Made by a program: the position numbers and the translations under genes. From Actinophytocola algeriensis (GTDB taxonomy: Bacteria; Actinomycetota; Actinomycetes; Mycobacteriales; Pseudonocardiaceae), in contig NZ_JACHJQ010000016.1 in assembly GCF_014203735.1 (NCBI RefSeq), positions 1-64,000 of the forward strand: a DNA stretch of 64,000 nt, given 5' to 3'. Positions 180-58,480 of this stretch are shown here, one piece after another. The notes under the pieces are model-generated. The model worked only from the letters and a program-made list of their open reading frames with translations, had not been told where the DNA came from and did not search any database. Within the stretch, counting starts at the first letter, position 1, and each line of letters starts with the position of its first letter.

Positions 180-494
180 TCATGCGACAGCACAGCTAGG
201 GCTTCGCTTCGATTTGCCGCCAGAGGCGGAAACTTCGGGCCTGTTCTGTGAAGGAGAGAAATTCCCCGGCACGGGCCATGTCGTCCGTGACCCGCCCACG
301 GAACTCGCGTACGTGGTGGCCCAGATCAGTTCACACGGCAACGCGGCCAGCCGAAGCCCGAGTTGGGGGTTGAGCCGCTCCAGGTGCGAATCTGCCGCAG
401 CACCGGGTGGTTCGCGCTGCGTGTCGTTGCCGAACGGCAGCAGCGTTCCGTCAACATCGAGGAACAGCAACGGGCGTTGCTCATGCGGCGTCAT
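180..494 (-). pseudogene. HAD-like phosphatase fragment coupled to the IS256-type transposase
   Basis: The start ATG overlaps the transposase stop as ATGA, so the gene would be translated by coupling. The N-terminus LLFLDVDGTLLPFG is the HAD motif I (nucleophile Asp and general-acid Asp) and LIWATTY is the usual following strand. After about residue 62 the sequence stops looking like a HAD protein. A different frame then reads plausible coding sequence (from VREFRGRVTDD to a stop near 201), so the 3' part is either frameshifted or joined to foreign DNA. HAD motifs III and IV are absent, hence non-functional as it stands. It may be a passenger gene of the element or an interrupted host gene. 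Confidence 0.55.
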
Positions 495-1955: not shown

Positions 1956-3188
1956 GTGCATCGTCACGGGACGTTTGACGCTGGTATGACGCGGAATACA
2001 GGTCACATCGACGATGTCGAACTCTTACGGATTGGGAGCCGTACTGTGCCAGCGTTACAAACTGCCGGGCCGGTAATCAACAACCCCGCACGATGGGTTT
2101 CGTGCCTGGTCAAAGACGTTCCACGCCCCAGCGATAGGCCCGCAGGTCCGCAGGTTTGGCAGTGGTCAGCGCAGCATTGGTCTGACGTGTGGCGACGCAC
2201 TTCTGGGCGTGGGCTGCCATCACGACGAGACGCGGTGGATCAGTTCACCGCGACGATGTGTAGCGAAGGCGATCTCTGCGACGAGCAGATCGAACAGGTT
2301 TGCAGCACAATCTTTTCACCGGGCGATCGGCCATTGGAGGTGTGGCTGGCGGACGCGATGGAAAGATTTGTGTGGCGGATCCGACCCTGGATTCCCCTAT
2401 GGGTATCCTTCGCGCATTGGTCGGTGCGCTGGTGCGTGCATCGCGAGCGCCAACAGTTGATCTTTCTGGCTCGAGACATGCTGTCGACGTACCTCACTGC
2501 GCGTCGACTTGATTCCCGGGTCGGGACGGGGCTGGACATCCGCTTGGCGCACGCGTCACGGAACCACCATGGCAGCGTGAGCAAGATCATGGGGACCGGC
2601 TCGACGGGCCACTTTGTGCCGAAACCATTCGCCGTGGTGGACTCGGGCTGTTATGGAACCGTGGTCTCCCGTCTGGTGGAGGATCTCGACTCTCCGGCGA
2701 CCCCCGCCGAGCACGCAGCGTGCCTGTTCTTCTTCAGCCGGAATCCAAGGATCTTCGGGTTTCTGAACTACCTGTTGAGCCCGAGCATTCTGGAAGCTGA
2801 CATCCTTGGTCATGACGTCGCTGACTTCGTGATCTACGCGGGCGATCTGCTGGAGGCTCTGCCCAAGCCATACCGGGTGGTCGACCATGGTGACATCTTC
2901 GCCGGTGAGATCCAGGACCTCTTGACATTCTGCTTGAGCATGGCGGTCCTCAAAGAGGTCGACGACTATGTCGACGCTGGTCCGTTGGCGTCCATCTCGC
3001 AAACCCAACGGAGGGCGCTGGAGCTCTACAACGTCTATGCCTACGCAGGCAGCAACCGTGCGCTCGGCGATTCTCTGCTCTTCCATGCCCCTGCTCCCCA
3101 GCAACTGCCGGCAAGTTACGGATTCGACGACCTGGACTTCCACAGCTTTCCACCGCAGAACGAAATTTTCGGGTCCGTTCCGGGATGA
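1956..3188 (+). CDS. Unknown protein with an LxRD-type motif; first gene of a three-gene operon
   Basis: I do not recognise this 410-residue protein with certainty. The middle contains QQLIFLARDMLSTYL, then ASRNH, then FAVVDSGCYGTVVSRLV and ACLFFFSRNP. This order recalls HAD-like proteins of glycan clusters (a FLARDG-like strand followed by VDIGW-like and a third strand), but the match is weak. No signal peptide or clear membrane segment is visible. The first possible start is GTG at 1956; ATG at 1986 is an alternative, and neither has a strong ribosome-binding site. Codon 24 is TTA (2025-2027), rare in high-GC actinomycetes. GC content is visibly lower than in the island downstream, which hints at transfer. 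It ends 19 nt before the next gene. Confidence 0.75.
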   Translation: MHRHGTFDAGMTRNTGHIDDVELLRIGSRTVPALQTAGPVINNPARWVSCLVKDVPRPSDRPAGPQVWQWSAQHWSDVWRRTSGRGLPSRRDAVDQFTATMCSEGDLCDEQIEQVCSTIFSPGDRPLEVWLADAMERFVWRIRPWIPLWVSFAHWSVRWCVHRERQQLIFLARDMLSTYLTARRLDSRVGTGLDIRLAHASRNHHGSVSKIMGTGSTGHFVPKPFAVVDSGCYGTVVSRLVEDLDSPATPAEHAACLFFFSRNPRIFGFLNYLLSPSILEADILGHDVADFVIYAGDLLEALPKPYRVVDHGDIFAGEIQDLLTFCLSMAVLKEVDDYVDAGPLASISQTQRRALELYNVYAYAGSNRALGDSLLFHAPAPQQLPASYGFDDLDFHSFPPQNEIFGSVPG

Positions 3189-3207
3189 CAAGGAAGGGGA
3201 ATCACCC

Positions 3208-4050
3208 ATGCGTCAGCACAACGTAGCGGCGTTCCTCGACCGGTGCCGCGATGAGTCAGGAAGATTCGTCGAGACCGACGAGGACCGACCGAGTCTGGAA
3301 GCGAGTCGCTTTGGCGCCGAAATTCTGCAACTGATTGGTAGCCGCCCCTCCGAGGCCGAGTTGCGGTTCGTCGCCGATCGTCACTGCGGTGCGGGATACG
3401 CCATGGACGACGATGCCGAAGAGCCCGCTCTGAGCGCCACCTACTACGCGCTTCGGTTGTTAGAACTGGCCGGACACCCACCATCCGACGCTCACGAGAT
3501 CGCGCGCTGGCTCGTCGACACACTGTTCGGCGAGGGCCGTGTCGTGGTGGACATGGACGATCTGTTCTACGGCATCCGTGCGCTCAACCTCGCCGGTGAG
3601 CGGCTCTCGTCAAGTGGGGAAGACGCGGTGCGCACCTTCCTGCAAACCTGTCAGCACGTCAATGGTGGGTACGGCTTGCTGCCTGATGCCGCGCCGGATA
3701 TCGAGCGGACGTACTGTGCGGTCGCCATTTCCTTGTGGATGGGCGGCGACAGTGATCACGAGGCCGCCCGAGCGCAGAAACCGTTCGTCCGCTCGTGCTA
3801 TGACGGCGGTGGACACATTAGGATGCGTCCGAGCAGTCCGGACTGGTCTTTGGCCAGTGGCTACTGGGGCAACCGTTGTGTTGAGTTGCTGGAGTTGGAC
3901 TGGCCGTGGGACGACGTACATGCTGCCACTGCGGCGTGCCGGCAACCTGACGGCGGTTTCACCTCCACTACCGGATCCTCCCTATGGGAGACCTACTGCG
4001 CTCTGCGGGTACTCGACATCGCCACCCAGCATCGGCAGGTGCACGCATGA
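3208..4050 (+). CDS. Prenyltransferase/squalene-cyclase-type repeat protein (alpha/alpha toroid)
   Basis: This 280-residue protein carries repeats of the kind found in protein prenyltransferase beta subunits and class II terpene cyclases: NGGYGLLPDAAPDIERTYCA in the middle, YDGGGHIRMRP later, and PDGGFTSTTGSSLWETYCAL at the C-terminus. The repeats suggest an alpha/alpha barrel that binds a lipid or isoprenoid. I see no DxDD motif of class II cyclases, and the zinc ligands of prenyltransferases cannot be assigned by eye, so the reaction is unknown. The ATG at 3208 follows AAGGAAGGGGA at a good spacing. Codon 85 is TTA (3460-3462). The stop overlaps the start of the next gene as ATGA, so the two are probably translationally coupled. 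Confidence 0.75.
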   Translation: MRQHNVAAFLDRCRDESGRFVETDEDRPSLEASRFGAEILQLIGSRPSEAELRFVADRHCGAGYAMDDDAEEPALSATYYALRLLELAGHPPSDAHEIARWLVDTLFGEGRVVVDMDDLFYGIRALNLAGERLSSSGEDAVRTFLQTCQHVNGGYGLLPDAAPDIERTYCAVAISLWMGGDSDHEAARAQKPFVRSCYDGGGHIRMRPSSPDWSLASGYWGNRCVELLELDWPWDDVHAATAACRQPDGGFTSTTGSSLWETYCALRVLDIATQHRQVHA

Positions 4051-4856
4051 GCCGCGCTTCGCTGCAAGACCTGGCCAGCGCTCCGCGACTGCGGCACCGT
4101 CTGGGATTCGGCCTGTACCTGATACCCGGGTACCCGACCTGGGAGGCCAGTGTTGACGCGGTGCGTGCGGCCGTGACGCAGGATGTCGACTTCATCGAGT
4201 TCCCGATCCTGCGTGACCGAACGTTCTCCGCACGCACCGGTGGCCCGGTGGCCGCCGCTCTCGCCAAAGCCCACCCGGACCTGCTCGATCTCGCCTCTCC
4301 CGCGCTGTATGAGTGGCTCGACGAGATCCCCGCGCCAGTCGGCGTGGTCTACGAGTCCGCCTGGCCGGCGTTGGACGACTGCCGAATCCCGCACACGCTC
4401 GCCGATCGTTGTGCCGGGCTGATCTGCGAGCACAACGCGACACCGTTTCAAGGGCACGCCCGGCATGCGCGAGTGTGGCGTACTCCATTGGTCGCGACTA
4501 TCCGGGCGACGCCGGACACCGTCGATGCTCACGACATCGACGTGCTCGAACATGGAGGCGGGTTCATCTATCTCGCACTCAGCGGCACCACCGGCGAACG
4601 CGGCAGCATCGATGATTCGGTCGCCAGAAAAATCCGCGCAGCACGCGACTACCGCGCCGATCTACCGGTGTATGCGGCGTTCGGTATCCGTACCCCCGAC
4701 GATGTGGCCGCCGTGGCAGCGGCCGGTGCCGACGGCTTCATCGTCGGCAGTCACGCCTTGCATCTACTCGGCACCGGCGGCCTCGGCGCCTATGAACACT
4801 GGCTGCGCAGCATGACCACCGCACGGGCGACCGCTCTGCCTGCACAATCACGCTGA
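4047..4856 (+). CDS. Tryptophan synthase alpha-like TIM-barrel protein with altered active site
   Basis: This 269-residue protein has the TrpA order of motifs: GLYLIPGYPTWEASV near residue 22 (TrpA has a YLxAGxP strand), VDFIEFPIL with Glu51 in the place of the catalytic TrpA Glu49, GGFIYLALSGTTGER at 171-185, YAAFGIRTPDDV at 209-220 and ADGFIVGSHAL at 229-238. The phosphate-binding GTTG, FGI and GS elements look intact. The segment matching SDPLADGP of TrpA reads RDRTFSARTGGP, so the catalytic Asp60 is missing. There is no trpB or other tryptophan gene next to it. It probably binds a phosphorylated ligand such as an indole-glycerol or pentulose phosphate and performs a different or simplified reaction. 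ATGA overlap with the upstream gene. Confidence 0.75.
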   Translation: MSRASLQDLASAPRLRHRLGFGLYLIPGYPTWEASVDAVRAAVTQDVDFIEFPILRDRTFSARTGGPVAAALAKAHPDLLDLASPALYEWLDEIPAPVGVVYESAWPALDDCRIPHTLADRCAGLICEHNATPFQGHARHARVWRTPLVATIRATPDTVDAHDIDVLEHGGGFIYLALSGTTGERGSIDDSVARKIRAARDYRADLPVYAAFGIRTPDDVAAVAAAGADGFIVGSHALHLLGTGGLGAYEHWLRSMTTARATALPAQSR

Positions 4857-4882: not shown

Positions 4883-4918
4883 CGCCGCTGTGGGAAAGAC
4901 CATTATTCCGCAGCGGCG
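4883..4918. terminator. Hairpin between convergent genes
   Basis: CGCCGCTGTGG (4883-4893) pairs with CCGCAGCGGCG (4908-4918) in 10 of 11 positions across a 14-nt loop. It sits between the TrpA-like gene and the convergent permease and overlaps the last codons of the permease. A bidirectional terminator is plausible. There is no U-tract, as is common in actinomycetes. Confidence 0.4.
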
Positions 4919-6219
4919 TCGGCGCTCCTGTTATGGTTGCCTCCGCTGGACCAGCGCCGGTAGGTCACCGCTCCGACAGCGAGCACGAGCGGGAACAGCA
5001 GGTACTCGCGAGCAAGGACCAGCACCACCAGCACCAGGCACAACGCGATCAGCGCGAGCCACCATCCCCAGCTGCCAGTGGGCAACAACCGTGTGCCGGC
5101 AGCCATGGCGATAGCGTAGATCCCGATCAGACAGGCGTTCTCCGCCAGGAGCAACGGTTCGATGTGGAAGCCGCTCAACATGGCTATCACGAAGCTCAGG
5201 GCTGTCCCGATGGTGACGACCAACAGGCTGCGTCGTGGCACTTCCCCGGCTTCGCTGCCGCTGGCGAGCCATCCCGGCAACGCACCATCGCGACCCAGCG
5301 CCGACCCCAGTTTGGACAAACTTGCGATGAACGCGTTCAACACACCCAAACTGACCACCACGGCGATTACCGCGGTGACCGTCCGCGCCGAGATCCCCGT
5401 TCCCTCGGCCAGCAGCAGCGCCAGAGGCGCGTCGGTTTGTGCGGCTTTTCTGCCGAGAACCAGGATCGTCACCCCCGCCACCGCCAGGGTCAACACACTG
5501 ATCACCGCCAACGAGATTCCCGTGGCCAACGGCAGGTCGCGTCGCGGATTTCGAAACTCAACCGCAAGGTGGGTCACGGTCTCCCAGCCAATGAACGCCC
5601 ACACCAACAAACTCATCGCCACGGCGAGCCCACTGATCCCATGTGGTGCGAACGGCTGCAGATTCGACACATCGGCACGTGGAACCGACACGACCACGGC
5701 CACGATCAGCAGCAACGCCAGCACGCCGGCAAACACCAGCTGCACACGTCCGGAAACACGCACCCCAAAAGCGTTGACGGTCACCGTGATCGCCACCAGT
5801 ATGACCGCCACCACGATCGTGGTGGTCTGGTCGCCCCCAATGAGTTCGGTGACATAGGCCGAGCCGAACGCGCTCGCCGCCGGCATCCCAGCCAACGCCC
5901 CGAAATAGAACCACCAGCCCGCGACAGCCGACACGCGCGGACCGAAAGCCCGCCGCGCGAACGTGGCGGGGCCACCGGCATCCGGATAACGCCCCGCCAA
6001 CGCGGCGAACGTCGCCGCCACCGGGATCGACACCACAATCAACCCCATCCACGCCAGCAACGACGCCGGTCCCGCAGCCTCAGCCGCTAACGATGGCAAC
6101 GCAAGCAAGCCCGTGCCCAGAACCGCCCCCACATACAGAGCAACACCCTGCACCACCGTCAGATGACCACCACCAGTCGACGTTGCCGAGTCAGTCCCGT
6201 CCCCGCGCGCTTCACCCAT
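4903..6219 (-). CDS. APC-superfamily amino acid/polyamine permease
   Basis: The 438-residue protein has about 12 hydrophobic segments. The first, GVALYVGAVLGTGLLALP, carries the APC motif G-x-x-x-GTG in TM1 that contacts the substrate backbone. The TM6 region LVWAFIGWETVTHLAVEFRN is also typical of the family. It should import, or exchange, amino acids or related amines across the cytoplasmic membrane. Substrate cannot be deduced. It is convergent with the three-gene operon, so co-regulation is not implied, although a transporter for a related metabolite is possible. Confidence 0.85.
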   Translation of the reverse strand: MGEARGDGTDSATSTGGGHLTVVQGVALYVGAVLGTGLLALPSLAAEAAGPASLLAWMGLIVVSIPVAATFAALAGRYPDAGGPATFARRAFGPRVSAVAGWWFYFGALAGMPAASAFGSAYVTELIGGDQTTTIVVAVILVAITVTVNAFGVRVSGRVQLVFAGVLALLLIVAVVVSVPRADVSNLQPFAPHGISGLAVAMSLLVWAFIGWETVTHLAVEFRNPRRDLPLATGISLAVISVLTLAVAGVTILVLGRKAAQTDAPLALLLAEGTGISARTVTAVIAVVVSLGVLNAFIASLSKLGSALGRDGALPGWLASGSEAGEVPRRSLLVVTIGTALSFVIAMLSGFHIEPLLLAENACLIGIYAIAMAAGTRLLPTGSWGWWLALIALCLVLVVLVLAREYLLFPLVLAVGAVTYRRWSSGGNHNRSADAAAE

Positions 6220-54501: not shown

Positions 54502-57500
54502 TCAGAGAACCTGGCCGTCCCTGGTCTTCCTGCGCAGAGCCGGTCTGCTGGACTTGGCGAGGTTGTTCCACATGTCGGAAAGGCCGGTGACGGTGCGCAC
54601 CGCGAACAGCGTGCGGATGGATACTTCCTGGTCCAGCTCCGACCTGATCAGGCCGACCAGCCTGATCGCACGCAGCGAGTTGCCACCGAGGTCAAAGAAG
54701 TCGTCGTCGATGCCCACCTGGTCCAGCTCGAGCACGTCGGCGAACGCCTCGGCCAGAACCCGTTCGGTGTCGTTGCGTGGCGCCCGGTACTGCCTGCCGC
54801 CGAACTCGGGTTCGGGCAGCGACGCCAGGTCCACTCTCCCGCCGGGCGTCAGCGGCAGGTGTTCAAGCACCGTGAACACCGACGGCACCAGGAACTCCGG
54901 CAACCGCCCCACGGTGAACCGGCGCAGCTCGTCACCCGAAGGGCCTGCCTCGTCGTCGACGGCCTCGCCGCTCACCGGGACCACATAGGCCACCAGACAC
55001 CGCCGCCCGGCGGGGTCCTCCCCACCGACCACCACCGACCGCACCAGCCTGGGGTGCTCGGACAGTGCTTCCTCGACCTCCGCCACGTCGACCCCGAAAC
55101 CACGTACCTCCGCCCTGGCGTCGACCCGGCCCACGTACTCGAGCCTGGCGACATCGTCGCCGTCGGCAGCCCACCGCACCCGGTCCCCGGTCCGGTACAT
55201 GCGCCCGCCGGCCGGACCGAAGGGACAGGGCACGAACCGCTCCGCCGTCCGGCCGGGTCGTCCGGGATATCCCCGCACCACGCCGGGCCCGGCCACATAC
55301 AGGTCTCCGGTCACGCCGACGGGGACCGGCGCCAGTCCGGGGCCCAGCACGTAGAGGGCGGTGTTGTCCATCGGGCGGCCGATCATGCCAGGACGTGCGG
55401 CATCGGCGCCGTGGCACGCGGCGAACACGGTCGACTCCATCGGACCGTGACCGTTGACGATCGTCAGCTCGGGGCACGCCGCCCGCACCCGTCGCACCGC
55501 GGTCGAGGACACGCGGTCACCACCGGTCCACACCTCGCGCAGCCCGGCCAGGCGCTCGGGACGTTCCGCCGCGACCGAGGAGAACAGCTCAGCGGACAGC
55601 CACACCGTCGAGACGTCGTCCGCCGTTCGCGACTCGGCCAGGTCGTCGACGTCGAGCCTCCCTGGAGGCGCCACGACCACCCGGCCGCCGTTCAGCAACG
55701 GCACCCACAGCTCGAGGGCAAGCGCGTCGGACGTGTGCGGCGAATGCCACAACACGGCGCCGTGGCCACCATCCCGCCAGCGGCGATCCATGACGAGCCG
55801 GAGCATGTTCCGGTGCGTCACCGCGGCTCCGGTGGCCGTACCGGACGATCCGGAGCCGTACATGACGGCCATCAGGTTGTCCTGGTGCGACGGGACCGGA
55901 ACCTCCCGCGCGCCGTCGTCGGCGGTGTCCGACCGGAGCTCGCCGAACACGATCGCCGGGACGCCCAGTTCGGCGGAGAGCTCCTCGGCCGTCGCCGCGT
56001 CGGTGAGCAGTGCGCGCACCGAGCAGTCACCGACCACCGGCATGATCTGCTCCACGGGGCAGGTGGGGTCGACTGGCAGGTAGGCGCCGCCCGCCTTGAC
56101 CACTCCCAGCAGGGCAACGGCCAGGTCCACCGACCGGGGCAGCGCCACCGCCACGACCGCCTCGGCTCCGACTCCCCTGCGCCGCAGTGACCCGGCGATG
56201 CGGGTCGACCGCTCGTCCAGCTCCCGGTACGAGACCGCTGAGCCCCAGGACACGATCGCGTCGGCACCGGGAGCCCTCTCCACCTGGCGGGAGAACAGCT
56301 CGGAAACCGTCAGCTCCGGCAGCGGCACGTCCGTGTCGTTCGGCGCGGTCAGCACCACGTCCCGCTCGGCACCGGACACGACGTCGATGGCACCGACCGG
56401 AAGCCGCGGATCGGCGGCCATCACGGTCCGGACGAACGCGACCAGATCCGCACTGATGAACCCCAGCTCCGCGCGGGAGTACAGGCCCGAGGGGGCGTCG
56501 AGCCGGAAGTACAGGTCGCTGTCGGCGCTTCCGTCGGTGCCGACGCTGATCGACAGCTCGTTGAAGGCCCCGTTGATCCCGCCGAAGGAGCGCGCCGGGC
56601 TACCCGCGAAGTGGAGTTGCTCCGCGAACCCGACGACGTTCATGACAGCACCGAAGCTGCCGCGTCCACTCAGGACGGTTCCGCTCGCCTGCTGGATGTC
56701 CGAGTAGTGGCAGGCCGTGTGATCGAAGATCTCGTAGGTCTGGTCGCCGACCGCCTCGGCGATCTCGGCGAAGGTCGCGTCGAGCGGAACCCTCACCCGC
56801 ACCGGCACGACGTTCACCGCCAGACCGGGCGTCCTGCTCGCGACCCCGACCCGGTTGCCAACGGCCAGCGACAGGAGGAACTCCGGATGATCGCAGCGGT
56901 GCCGGAAGTACACCGCCGCGGCCGCGGTCAACATCGACGACATCCACATACCCGTGGACGTCGCGACCTCGGTCCACGCGTCCGCCTCGGCACGCGGGAC
57001 GGTCACCGTCCTGCTCACCACGCCAATGGCGTCGGCCAGCTCCGACCAGCGATCGGCGCTGCCCATCGGTTCGGACAGGGCGACTCGCGCCGCGTCGGAC
57101 AGGGCCACACGCGGAACCTGTGCGGGCGGGGGCGCGTCCTTCAGATAGTCGCGCCAGAACTCCTTGTCGTCGGCGAACCTCTGGGAGGCGAGGTACTCCG
57201 TCGCACCGGCCGCGAACGAGCCGGTGTCCCACGGGTGCGGCAACTCCGGCACCGCCGCCCCCCGCGTCAGCGCCGTGTACACCTCGGCGAGGCGGCGCGA
57301 CAGCAGACCACCCACACCGTAGCCATCCGAGATGAGGTGGTGGTACGCGATGACCACGAGCGAGCGGGCCGCCGACAGCGTGACCACGCCCAGCCGGAAC
57401 AGCAGATCGTGCTCCAGGTCGAACGGCTGCCTGATCATGTCGGCCAACGCCTCGCGCGCCGACCGCTCGGGATCGACAGCGTCGCTGACGTCGAGGAAGA

Positions 57501-57738
57501 ACGGCCGCCAGTCCCCCAGATCCCTTGGCACCAAACGCAGGCCGCTGTCCTCGTCGACGAAGCTGACACGCAGCACTTCCGCCTCGTCCAACACATGCCG
57601 GAACGCGGACTCCATGACCGCCGCGTCCAGCGCGCCGTCCACATCCCACATGGTCAGCGCATGGTTCATCGTGTCGGCGGACACCTTCTGCGCCAGCCAC
57701 AGTCCTTTGTGCGCAGATGACGCATCGAACGAACGCAC
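54502..57738 (-). CDS. NRPS elongation protein (condensation, adenylation, carrier domains) with degenerate A domain
   Basis: The 1078-residue protein starts at GTG 57738 behind CGAGAGGGGC. Residues about 1-420 are a condensation domain with VVIAYHHLISDGYGVGGLLS (HHxxxDG intact). Residues about 460-930 are an adenylation domain: VSYRELDERSTRIAGSLRRR, VKAGGAYLPVDPTCP, VMYGSGSSGTATGAAVTHRN (A3 without the usual PKG), NGHGPMESTV (A5), MYRTGDRVRW (A7), GRVDARAEVRGFGV (A8) and PLTPGGRVDLASL (A10, Lys replaced by Arg). Residues about 990-1060 are a carrier domain DDFFDLGGNSLRAIRLVGLI with the Ser. No thioesterase or reductase follows. The changes suggest that the A domain no longer activates an amino acid. 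Confidence 0.9.
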   Translation of the reverse strand: MRSFDASSAHKGLWLAQKVSADTMNHALTMWDVDGALDAAVMESAFRHVLDEAEVLRVSFVDEDSGLRLVPRDLGDWRPFFLDVSDAVDPERSAREALADMIRQPFDLEHDLLFRLGVVTLSAARSLVVIAYHHLISDGYGVGGLLSRRLAEVYTALTRGAAVPELPHPWDTGSFAAGATEYLASQRFADDKEFWRDYLKDAPPPAQVPRVALSDAARVALSEPMGSADRWSELADAIGVVSRTVTVPRAEADAWTEVATSTGMWMSSMLTAAAAVYFRHRCDHPEFLLSLAVGNRVGVASRTPGLAVNVVPVRVRVPLDATFAEIAEAVGDQTYEIFDHTACHYSDIQQASGTVLSGRGSFGAVMNVVGFAEQLHFAGSPARSFGGINGAFNELSISVGTDGSADSDLYFRLDAPSGLYSRAELGFISADLVAFVRTVMAADPRLPVGAIDVVSGAERDVVLTAPNDTDVPLPELTVSELFSRQVERAPGADAIVSWGSAVSYRELDERSTRIAGSLRRRGVGAEAVVAVALPRSVDLAVALLGVVKAGGAYLPVDPTCPVEQIMPVVGDCSVRALLTDAATAEELSAELGVPAIVFGELRSDTADDGAREVPVPSHQDNLMAVMYGSGSSGTATGAAVTHRNMLRLVMDRRWRDGGHGAVLWHSPHTSDALALELWVPLLNGGRVVVAPPGRLDVDDLAESRTADDVSTVWLSAELFSSVAAERPERLAGLREVWTGGDRVSSTAVRRVRAACPELTIVNGHGPMESTVFAACHGADAARPGMIGRPMDNTALYVLGPGLAPVPVGVTGDLYVAGPGVVRGYPGRPGRTAERFVPCPFGPAGGRMYRTGDRVRWAADGDDVARLEYVGRVDARAEVRGFGVDVAEVEEALSEHPRLVRSVVVGGEDPAGRRCLVAYVVPVSGEAVDDEAGPSGDELRRFTVGRLPEFLVPSVFTVLEHLPLTPGGRVDLASLPEPEFGGRQYRAPRNDTERVLAEAFADVLELDQVGIDDDFFDLGGNSLRAIRLVGLIRSELDQEVSIRTLFAVRTVTGLSDMWNNLAKSSRPALRRKTRDGQVL

Positions 57739-57838
57739 GCGGCTGCCCCTCTCGGTAGTTCGAGAAACGGGTCTCCTGACGACTTCGCGGTGTCCCGCCG
57801 CCGGGACGGTCGAGGCGACCGACCTCGCCGGCTCGCGG

Positions 57839-58480
57839 TCACACGTCCCAGGTGACGCGTGGGTATGCGTGATGCTCGTCCTGTAGTTCGTCGGCGCCGA
57901 AGCGGAAGACTTCATAACCGCTGAGTTTGAGGTCGCGGTCGGCACGCATGTTCTCGGCGTAGACGGCCGGGGAAGGGCGGCCTTCCTTCGCGTAGTGGTG
58001 TTGGCCATCGACCTCGATCACGACTCGACTGTGGTTCGGGAGCAGGAGGAGGAAGTCCATGCGGAACCGGAACAGTGCGTCCTTCCCGCGAAGGCGAATA
58101 GTCTGAGGATCCCAGTGCACCCAATACCTCGGGCAACAGAGCGGGCAGGTCGGGGATGTTCGCCTTGAAGATCGAGTGGTAGAGGTGGAAGAAGGTCCGT
58201 TGCGGGTGGGGGCCGTCATAGTCAGGCGAGTTTGCCGGAAGGCTAGTCACGAGCCTGCTGTAGAGGGTGCGCTTGGCCTCGTCAGCCACAGTTGCGCCCT
58301 GCTCCGCCACAGGGCCGCACTGGCCTCCGCATCCCCACGTGCGCGGCGCAGTTGCCGCTCGATGACAGCGTCTTCTTGGTGAGTGTTCCCGGTGAAGATC
58401 GCTCTCGACCGCTCCAGCATCCCGCCGACACTTCGCTCGGCGGCGTCGTTCACCACTAACAGGTCGACGAAACCGATCAC
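57839..58480 (-). pseudogene. AbiJ-like/DUF559-type endonuclease remnant
   Basis: Three frames give pieces of one protein. The N-terminal part has ARGDAEASAALWRSRAQLWL, the middle EAKRTLYSRLVTSLPANSPD, FHLYHSIFKANIPDLPALLP, and the C-terminal part LFRFRMDFLLLLPNHSRVVI then EVDGQHHYAKEGRPSPAVYA and LKLSGYEVFRFGADELQD. The last piece contains the E-V-D-G-x-x-H motif of PD-(D/E)xK-like nucleases that is typical of abortive-infection AbiJ-type proteins. The usual C-terminal helix after ELQD is replaced by unrelated sequence. A decayed defence gene. Confidence 0.65.

Follow-up and report, generated by a model that had tools for sequence, protein, structure and literature searches.

Glycan phosphoribosyltransferases are exemplified by the CriT domain of Bcs3, which, according to the excerpted text of PMC10299916, possesses a phosphoribosyltransferase-like core and transfers ribose-5-phosphate from 5-phosphoribosyl-1-pyrophosphate (PRPP). 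In the excerpted text of PMC9379638, five shared genes are listed for the clusters of valanimycin, KA57-A and the azodyrecins, and for the hydrazine-forming enzyme VlmO an excerpt of PMC11705231 gives four essential residues, D51, H82, H110 and D114. The present work concerns a three-gene operon of Actinophytocola algeriensis, located in the first 64,000 nucleotides of contig NZ_JACHJQ010000016.1 (this whole stretch is called the window below). Its genes encode P1, a putative glycan-phosphoribosyltransferase-like protein, P2, an alpha/alpha toroid, and P3, a TrpA-like barrel. The three genes make up a conserved unit, which we tentatively interpret as a self-contained PRPP-dependent biosynthetic cassette making a precursor for specialised metabolites; this interpretation is plausible, if short of probable.

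Conservation and constraint of the three-gene unit

The open reading frames (ORFs) of P1, P2 and P3 are intact and lie on the plus strand (Table 1), P1 and P2 being separated by 19 nt and P2 and P3 overlapping in a shared ATGA, as the original prediction had described. The ATG at 1986 is more probably the start of P1 than the GTG at 1956, because the methionine encoded there aligns with a methionine of the Actinosynnema copy. A genome collection of 84,980 species, by its own description, was scanned with the P1 alignment, and the 42 pattern matches yielded 12 confirmed loci, nine with long relatives of P1 and three with short ones. The long relatives belong to five Amycolatopsis (58–61%), and to two Actinomadura, Actinosynnema sp. 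ALI-1.44 and one metagenome-assembled genome (MAG) of Streptosporangiaceae (33–35%). The Actinosynnema contig, which appears both as L013 and as L002/L004, was counted a single time.

At all nine further loci, P1 is followed by P2 and then by P3. The 4-nt ATGA overlap is kept in ten of ten loci, the gaps between P1 and P2 measure 19–41 nt, and none of the ten copies contains internal stops. The ratios of nonsynonymous to synonymous substitution rates (dN/dS) range from 0.09 to 0.41 across 24 comparisons, indicating purifying selection on P1, P2 and P3. Pairwise distances of the three proteins correlate at 0.97–0.99 (45 pairs), although shared descent alone also raises such correlations. This shows that the three genes are a conserved, constrained unit, more than would be expected by chance. 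The suggestion of an undescribed three-gene unit is supported, and the possibility that the genes are never found together elsewhere falls away because the order is conserved at the other loci; no description of the trio was found in the open-access literature searched.

The trio is rare. In the Amycolatopsis genus group it occurs in five of 80 genomes and in the Actinomadura group in two of 65, all of them already-known carriers. A search with P2 in 200 related genomes gave three matches, namely the own genome, a clear relative in G116 (34%) and one weak match; the match in G004, which covers 133 aa at 30% within a frame of 1351 aa, was left out of the trio count. Wider sampling found only the central genome, in the order (1/397), the class (1/394) and the phylum of L016 (1/286), the order and class counts being lower bounds since four candidates were scored per genome. 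Relatives of P1 or P3 were not found in plasmids at E 1e-5, and eight pattern matches in viral contigs included no confirmed P1 relative.

The original prediction had also pointed to an unusual base composition. The GC content of the operon is indeed 0.629 versus 0.691 for the remainder of the window, and 4.2% of 306 operon-sized sliding windows show an equal or lower value, but only the window copy shows this dip, and each of the other nine lies within 0.03 of its surroundings.

Predicted properties of P1, P2 and P3

For P1 of the window, neither Pfam nor NCBIfam gives a match at E ≤ 1, and Pfam matches are likewise absent for all ten members. The original prediction had called it an unknown protein; its predicted fold is most like that of PRPP-using glycan phosphoribosyltransferases. 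For a first AlphaFold2 model, made with ten sequences (predicted local distance difference test score, pLDDT, 68.2), Bcs3 chains occupied Foldseek ranks 1–3. A second model, with three short relatives added, reached a mean pLDDT of 74.6 and a predicted TM-score of 0.81, and six of its top seven PDB rows were Bcs3 chains, all from a single enzyme solved in two entries, with E values from 1.6e-3 to 1e-2, prob 1.00, TMq 0.35–0.38 and a root-mean-square deviation of 10–13 Å. The second solved enzyme of this kind, the ribofuranosyl transferase 7shg of Thermobacillus composti, ranked 27th (E 0.32, prob 0.89), and the purine phosphoribosyltransferase 1vdm ranked 33rd (prob 0.84).

Several conserved motifs of P1 follow predicted strands. 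In P1 numbering, which is the model numbering plus 29, strands 157–161, 184–188 and 245–248 lead to R163-D164, S191-R192 and SRNP (251–254), respectively, and DSGCYGT (219–225) begins at the end of strand 215–219. According to the excerpt of PMC10299916, docking to CriT places PRPP beside S678-R679-D680, S707-R708, E818 and T825. Residues A162-R163-D164, S191-R192, D219 and T225 of P1 were set against these by eye, and may play comparable roles; the model is weak at the S-R, DSGCYGT and SRNP loops, where the ten-residue pLDDT means are 56–73. S191-R192 is not common to the three short relatives as aligned.

Other identities of P1 were considered. Among the PDB sequences, two of the P1 profiles gave a borderline match to a thymidylate synthase ThyX (E 1.4e-3 and 3.9e-3) over 67 residues, partly in a low-confidence region of the model, which was set aside because ThyX is absent from the 50 fold matches listed for the two P1 models. 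A HAD phosphatase was rejected, as P1 has no DxD start and its fold matches are phosphoribosyltransferase-like. Comparison of the model with a viral structure library gave nothing convincing.

The three short relatives of P1 come from MAGs with small genomes, assigned to Parcubacteria, to Candidatus Nomurabacteria and, in one case, only to "bacterium"; they are 55–57% identical to the first of the three. At each of these loci a BtpA-family gene directly follows (Pfam E 6.5e-56, 5.9e-52 and 2.1e-52 for L015, L016 and L017). A profile of the short proteins recovers P1 in Actinosynnema and in one Actinomadura genome (E 1.2e-4 and 4.2e-4) and misses it in the other Actinomadura genome. P1 stands beside the P3 barrel in actinomycetes and beside BtpA in the MAGs; therefore, the P1 family adjoins phosphate-binding-type barrels in two distant groups. 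In the more specific scheme given below, this pairing would go back far in time, because the pair of P1 and BtpA is kept in small-genome bacteria, of which two out of three carry names of the candidate phyla radiation (CPR).

P2 was described in the original prediction as a prenyltransferase-fold toroid. The fold is found in all ten members (window copy, Pfam Prenyltrans, E 1.2e-11), but the zinc triad is not. D238 and C240 of RabGGTase-beta, zinc ligands that form with H290 an Asp/Cys/His triad, align together with H290 to S214, A216 and E261 of P2, all three invariant in ten of ten members (HMMER alignment; E261 is placed opposite H290 by extending the collinear alignment towards the C-terminus). 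A protein prenyltransferase was judged against, the zinc triad being absent. The motif at D115–D118 reads D-x-D-D in six members and D-x-D-E in four. With the letter set used, 28 invariant residues are polar or aromatic, including E31, R34, R83, D115, D117 and R124, as well as D164, E166, R223, E261 and R267, and their position within the toroid would be that expected from the family. The largely polar or aromatic character of the invariant residues speaks for a polar, perhaps phosphorylated, ligand.

P3 agrees with the description of a phosphate-binding TrpA-like barrel, being a full-length TrpA relative with phosphate loops. The window copy matches Pfam Trp_syntA with E 4.3e-15, and a ten-member profile aligns over most of its length with TrpA proteins of plants and bacteria and with designed ones (LBCATS-a, 1.6e-20; BX1, 3.8e-19). 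The counterpart of the catalytic Glu49 and the phosphate-loop glycines 213 and 234 are invariant. Asp60 of TrpA falls on a gap in the alignment with one TrpA and opposite the invariant Thr64 in that with LBCATS-a, and none of the ten members has Asp there; the former alignment used one of seven TrpA loci, the other six being set aside because the motif was not matched in them. With 48.7 bits, P3 scores below the NCBIfam trpA equivalog cut-off of 102.35. A separate strong TrpA match exists elsewhere in all five actinomycete genomes tested (in A. algeriensis, G000:C7:156683-157405, 224 bits), and so P3 is an extra paralogue and not the housekeeping enzyme. No separate TrpA match was found in the L016 genome. 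In the Actinosynnema genome G818, five Trp_syntA match segments are distributed over contigs C39, C51 and C48, one of them being P3.

Table 1. Coordinates of the trio, its proposed motifs and associated units (window positions, unless a locus is named)
Feature	Position	Strand	Basis or remark
P1, putative glycan-phosphoribosyltransferase-like, 400 aa	1986..3188 (alternative start GTG 1956)	+	alignment, models, Foldseek
P1 Arg163-Asp164, proposed loop 1 after first strand of alpha/beta core	2472..2477	+	invariant in 13/13 aligned P1
P1 Ser191-Arg192, proposed loop 2	2556..2561	+	invariant in 10/10 actinomycete copies
P1 D219-S-G-C-Y-G-T225, proposed PRPP 5-phosphate loop	2640..2660	+	invariant in 13/13
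P2, zinc-less alpha/alpha toroid, 280 aa	3208..4050	+	Pfam Prenyltrans in 10/10 members; PDB profile search
P2 D115-M-D117-D118 (family: D-x-D-[DE])	3550..3561	+	conservation alignment
P3, TrpA-like (beta/alpha)8 barrel, 269 aa	4047..4856	+	Pfam Trp_syntA in 10/10 members; PDB profile E 1.6e-20
P3 Glu51, counterpart of TrpA catalytic Glu49	4197..4199	+	alignments; invariant in 10/10
Amino-acid permease	4903-6219	-	convergent with operon; may be merely a chromosomal neighbour
Short P1 + BtpA two-gene units	L015:2100-3790; L016:9623-11317; L017:4097-5872		three small-genome MAGs, two named as CPR

Gene neighbourhoods of the trio

At L011, L012 and L013 the trio is flanked on one side by a divergent LPG_synthase_C gene (VlmA-like) and on the other by a pyridoxal phosphate (PLP)-dependent decarboxylase gene. 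Beyond the latter there are an acyl-CoA-dehydrogenase-fold gene, a gene for a small membrane protein, a flavin reductase gene and an AurF-like gene. In the small membrane protein of L012 and L013, D51, H82, H110 and D114 stand at the same numbering as in VlmO, and in that of L011 they are shifted by 5. Domain matches of the VlmA-, VlmH-, VlmR- and VlmB-like genes come from one copy each, to which the genes at all three loci are 78–86% identical; the VlmB-like gene matches AurF weakly, with an E of 1e-3 that does not reach the Pfam cut-off. Because of the five shared genes listed in the excerpt of PMC9379638, these sets are complete azoxy (N-N)-type clusters, a class assignment made by gene content and not by comparison with reference Vlm sequences. 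L014 possesses VlmA- and decarboxylase-like genes, and the other members of the set are absent from the 15 kb of sequence covered there.

The azoxy-type sets extend over L011:8606-18960 in Actinomadura rudentiformis, L012:8555-17430 in A. barringtoniae and L013:8643-19648 in Actinosynnema sp. ALI-1.44. They adjoin large genes resembling nonribosomal peptide synthetases (NRPS), and in L012 and L013 also a gene for an MFS-type transporter; no description of them was found in the literature listing searched. A 3-methyladenine DNA glycosylase gene occurs at L014:9286-9996 (Pfam Adenine_glyco 1.5e-66) and at L013:15655-16269 (64% identical), and could serve in self-protection against DNA alkylation.

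In the Amycolatopsis loci L006, L008, L009 and L010 the trio is followed by genes of an acyl-CoA dehydrogenase, a dehydrogenase-adenylation-carrier protein, a thioesterase and a GYD protein. The adenylation substrate code, read by eye, allowed no confident assignment and was not used. A relative of the window's permease is found downstream of the trio at all five Amycolatopsis loci (68–71% identical), and in L007, as in the window, it follows the trio directly. Upstream of the trio of Amycolatopsis rubida there is a copper amine oxidase gene (L006:5473-7569; Pfam Cu_amine_oxid 2.4e-151).

In the window, the remains of a Mutator-type transposase occupy 491-1648 on the minus strand, about 340 nt upstream of the operon. 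They are spread over several frames and apparently broken, with a Pfam Transposase_mut E of 1e-26 for 491-1153 and of only 0.14 for 1232-1648. Just outside these remains, near the contig start, lies a perfect 15-bp inverted repeat (1649-1663 / 1710-1724). Beyond them, an ORF at 180-494 (minus strand) carries a HAD-like DVDGTLL motif recognised by eye, without a Pfam match at E ≤ 0.01, and some 90 bases at the left window edge resemble, as judged by eye, the end of a cut gene. A promoter and terminator scan and an Rfam search gave nothing useful. About 50 kb from the trio there is a minus-strand NRPS-like gene (54502-58008), which is 36% identical to the adenylation-carrier part of the Amycolatopsis protein.

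A tentative PRPP-dependent cassette, its alternatives and known systems

The fold and motifs of P1 suggest that it would transfer the 5-phosphoribosyl group of PRPP to a small acceptor. P2, whose toroid has no zinc site and is rich in invariant acidic, arginine and tyrosine residues, might then catalyse an acid/base step on the phosphorylated adduct, such as isomerisation, cyclisation or dehydration. P3, judging from homology, its phosphate loops and the Glu49 counterpart, would cleave the adduct at a carbon-carbon bond, or rearrange it, in the manner of TrpA. In relatives, the cassette appears, by its neighbours, to supply one of two routes, an azoxy (N-N) pathway that includes a PLP decarboxylase or a module of adenylation and acyl-CoA dehydrogenase genes, and for this reason it probably yields a precursor that is an unusual amino acid or amine. 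A more specific scheme follows the logic of the tryptophan pathway with another acceptor: P1 would attach phosphoribose, P2 would rearrange it and P3 would cleave it with release of glyceraldehyde 3-phosphate, so that part of the ribose stays on an unusual amino acid for azoxy and adenylation pathways. In this full form the scheme is rather unlikely.

A number of points weigh against the cassette. All fold matches of P1 lie above E 0.001, with low TM-scores and deviations of 10–13 Å, the sixth-ranked match is an SRP GTPase (prob 0.84), and the search output does not indicate which domain of the three-enzyme Bcs3 chain was matched; the assignment of P1 is consequently probable, not proven. Model residues 161–260 (P1 190–289), which contain the S-R, DSGCYGT and SRNP loops, have ten-residue mean pLDDT values of 41–73, and four P1 profiles found no phosphoribosyltransferase among PDB sequences. 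The classical vicinal Asp pair of phosphoribosyltransferases is absent from P1, as it is, according to the excerpt of PMC10299916, from CriT. The function of P2 is deduced from conservation only, and a direct profile comparison of P3 with one BtpA was not significant. The window begins at base 1 of its 81,471-nt contig, whereby the upstream side of the operon is lost, and no VlmO relative was found in the A. algeriensis genome, which is 98% complete, in a search made without a positive control.

The original prediction had offered a prenylated or indole-derived metabolite, or the processing of a pentose phosphate ligand. Class II terpene cyclases carry a DxDD acid motif, which the invariant D-x-D-[DE] of P2 recalls, and the toroid fold of all ten members would suit an enzyme of this kind or a small-molecule prenyltransferase, with a prenylated or terpenoid product of the operon. 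Such cyclases also possess a second domain, however, whereas P2 has only 280 aa; the zinc triad of protein prenyltransferases is missing, the invariant residues, with five arginines and nine acids among them, are suited to a polar ligand, and no isoprenoid gene was found in the part of the neighbours scanned. An isoprenoid enzyme is thus quite improbable, and a prenylated product is disfavoured. It is still more improbable that P3 releases indole for an indole-derived compound: it matches BX1 and TrpA over the full length (E 3.8e-19 to 1.6e-20) and keeps Glu49, but the loss of Asp60 in ten of ten members and the strong separate TrpA in each of the five actinomycete genomes speak against an indole lyase. 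Of the three options, a pentose phosphate ligand agrees best with the findings, given the likeness of P1 to PRPP-using enzymes and the phosphate loops retained in P3.

P1 might instead be a true glycan or O-phosphoribosyltransferase decorating a metabolite or cell-surface glycan with ribofuranose, the sugar being tailored by P2 and P3. The best fold matches of P1 are glycan phosphoribosyltransferases, for which sugar acceptors are known (excerpts of PMC10299916, PMC12096443 and PMC11127046), but the systems described in these excerpts include no TrpA-like barrel, the usual HAD phosphatase companion was not found in the operons or in the part of the neighbours scanned, and the identified neighbours are amine/N-N and adenylation genes rather than glycan genes, which makes this decoration unlikely. 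The window operon could also be a stranded remnant of a larger cluster, brought by a mobile element and unlinked from its pathway. The nearby transposase remains, the contig start at base 1, the low GC content and the failure to find azoxy and dehydrogenase/thioesterase partners in the window, or a VlmO relative in the genome by the search mentioned, all accord with such an origin. Against it, the three frames are intact, dN/dS relative to L007 is 0.20–0.31, and L007 too has the trio and permease without those partners; a remnant seems doubtful rather than likely.

If the PRPP-dependent cassette is real, glycan-type phosphoribosyl transfer, recently described, enters small-molecule biosynthesis, the P1 family, here without any Pfam match, gains a role, and toroid and TrpA barrel are shown in new roles. 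For the orphan azoxy-type clusters found in rare actinomycetes, the cassette would also point to a module that supplies building blocks. The cassette is directly testable, with three small genes and one candidate co-substrate, PRPP.

Compared with known systems, P2 belongs to the same Prenyltrans fold family as prenyltransferase beta and squalene cyclase toroids, differing by Ser/Ala/Glu in place of the zinc triad, by many polar invariant residues and by its length, the solved toroid relatives listed having 330 aa or more. P3 is a full-length relative of TrpA and BX1 with Glu49 and the phosphate loops kept; it differs in the loss of Asp60, in the separate strong TrpA of the genomes and in an operon without a TrpB partner. 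As in the three small-genome MAGs, where a barrel gene of the BtpA/SgcQ family comes after a short P1, the P3 barrel gene comes after P1, via P2; P3 itself is TrpA-like. In common with valanimycin-type clusters, L011–L013 have VlmA-, VlmD-, VlmH-, VlmO-, VlmR- and VlmB-like genes, which at these loci surround the trio, whereas azoxy genes were not seen in the window; P1–P3 are not among the five genes listed in the excerpt of PMC9379638. From the glycan phosphoribosyltransferases (CriT of Bcs3 and 7shg), P1 differs in showing no profile similarity to their PDB sequences, in standing alone within a metabolite-type operon and in having no HAD phosphatase partner in the operons or the scanned part of the neighbours. 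It is nevertheless to these enzymes that its best predicted-fold matches belong, and, in a correspondence drawn by eye, P1 resembles them in an Asp before the proposed phosphate loop and in its R-D and S-R motifs, with a spacing of 27 residues from D164 to S191, equal to that from D680 to S707 of CriT in the excerpt of PMC10299916.

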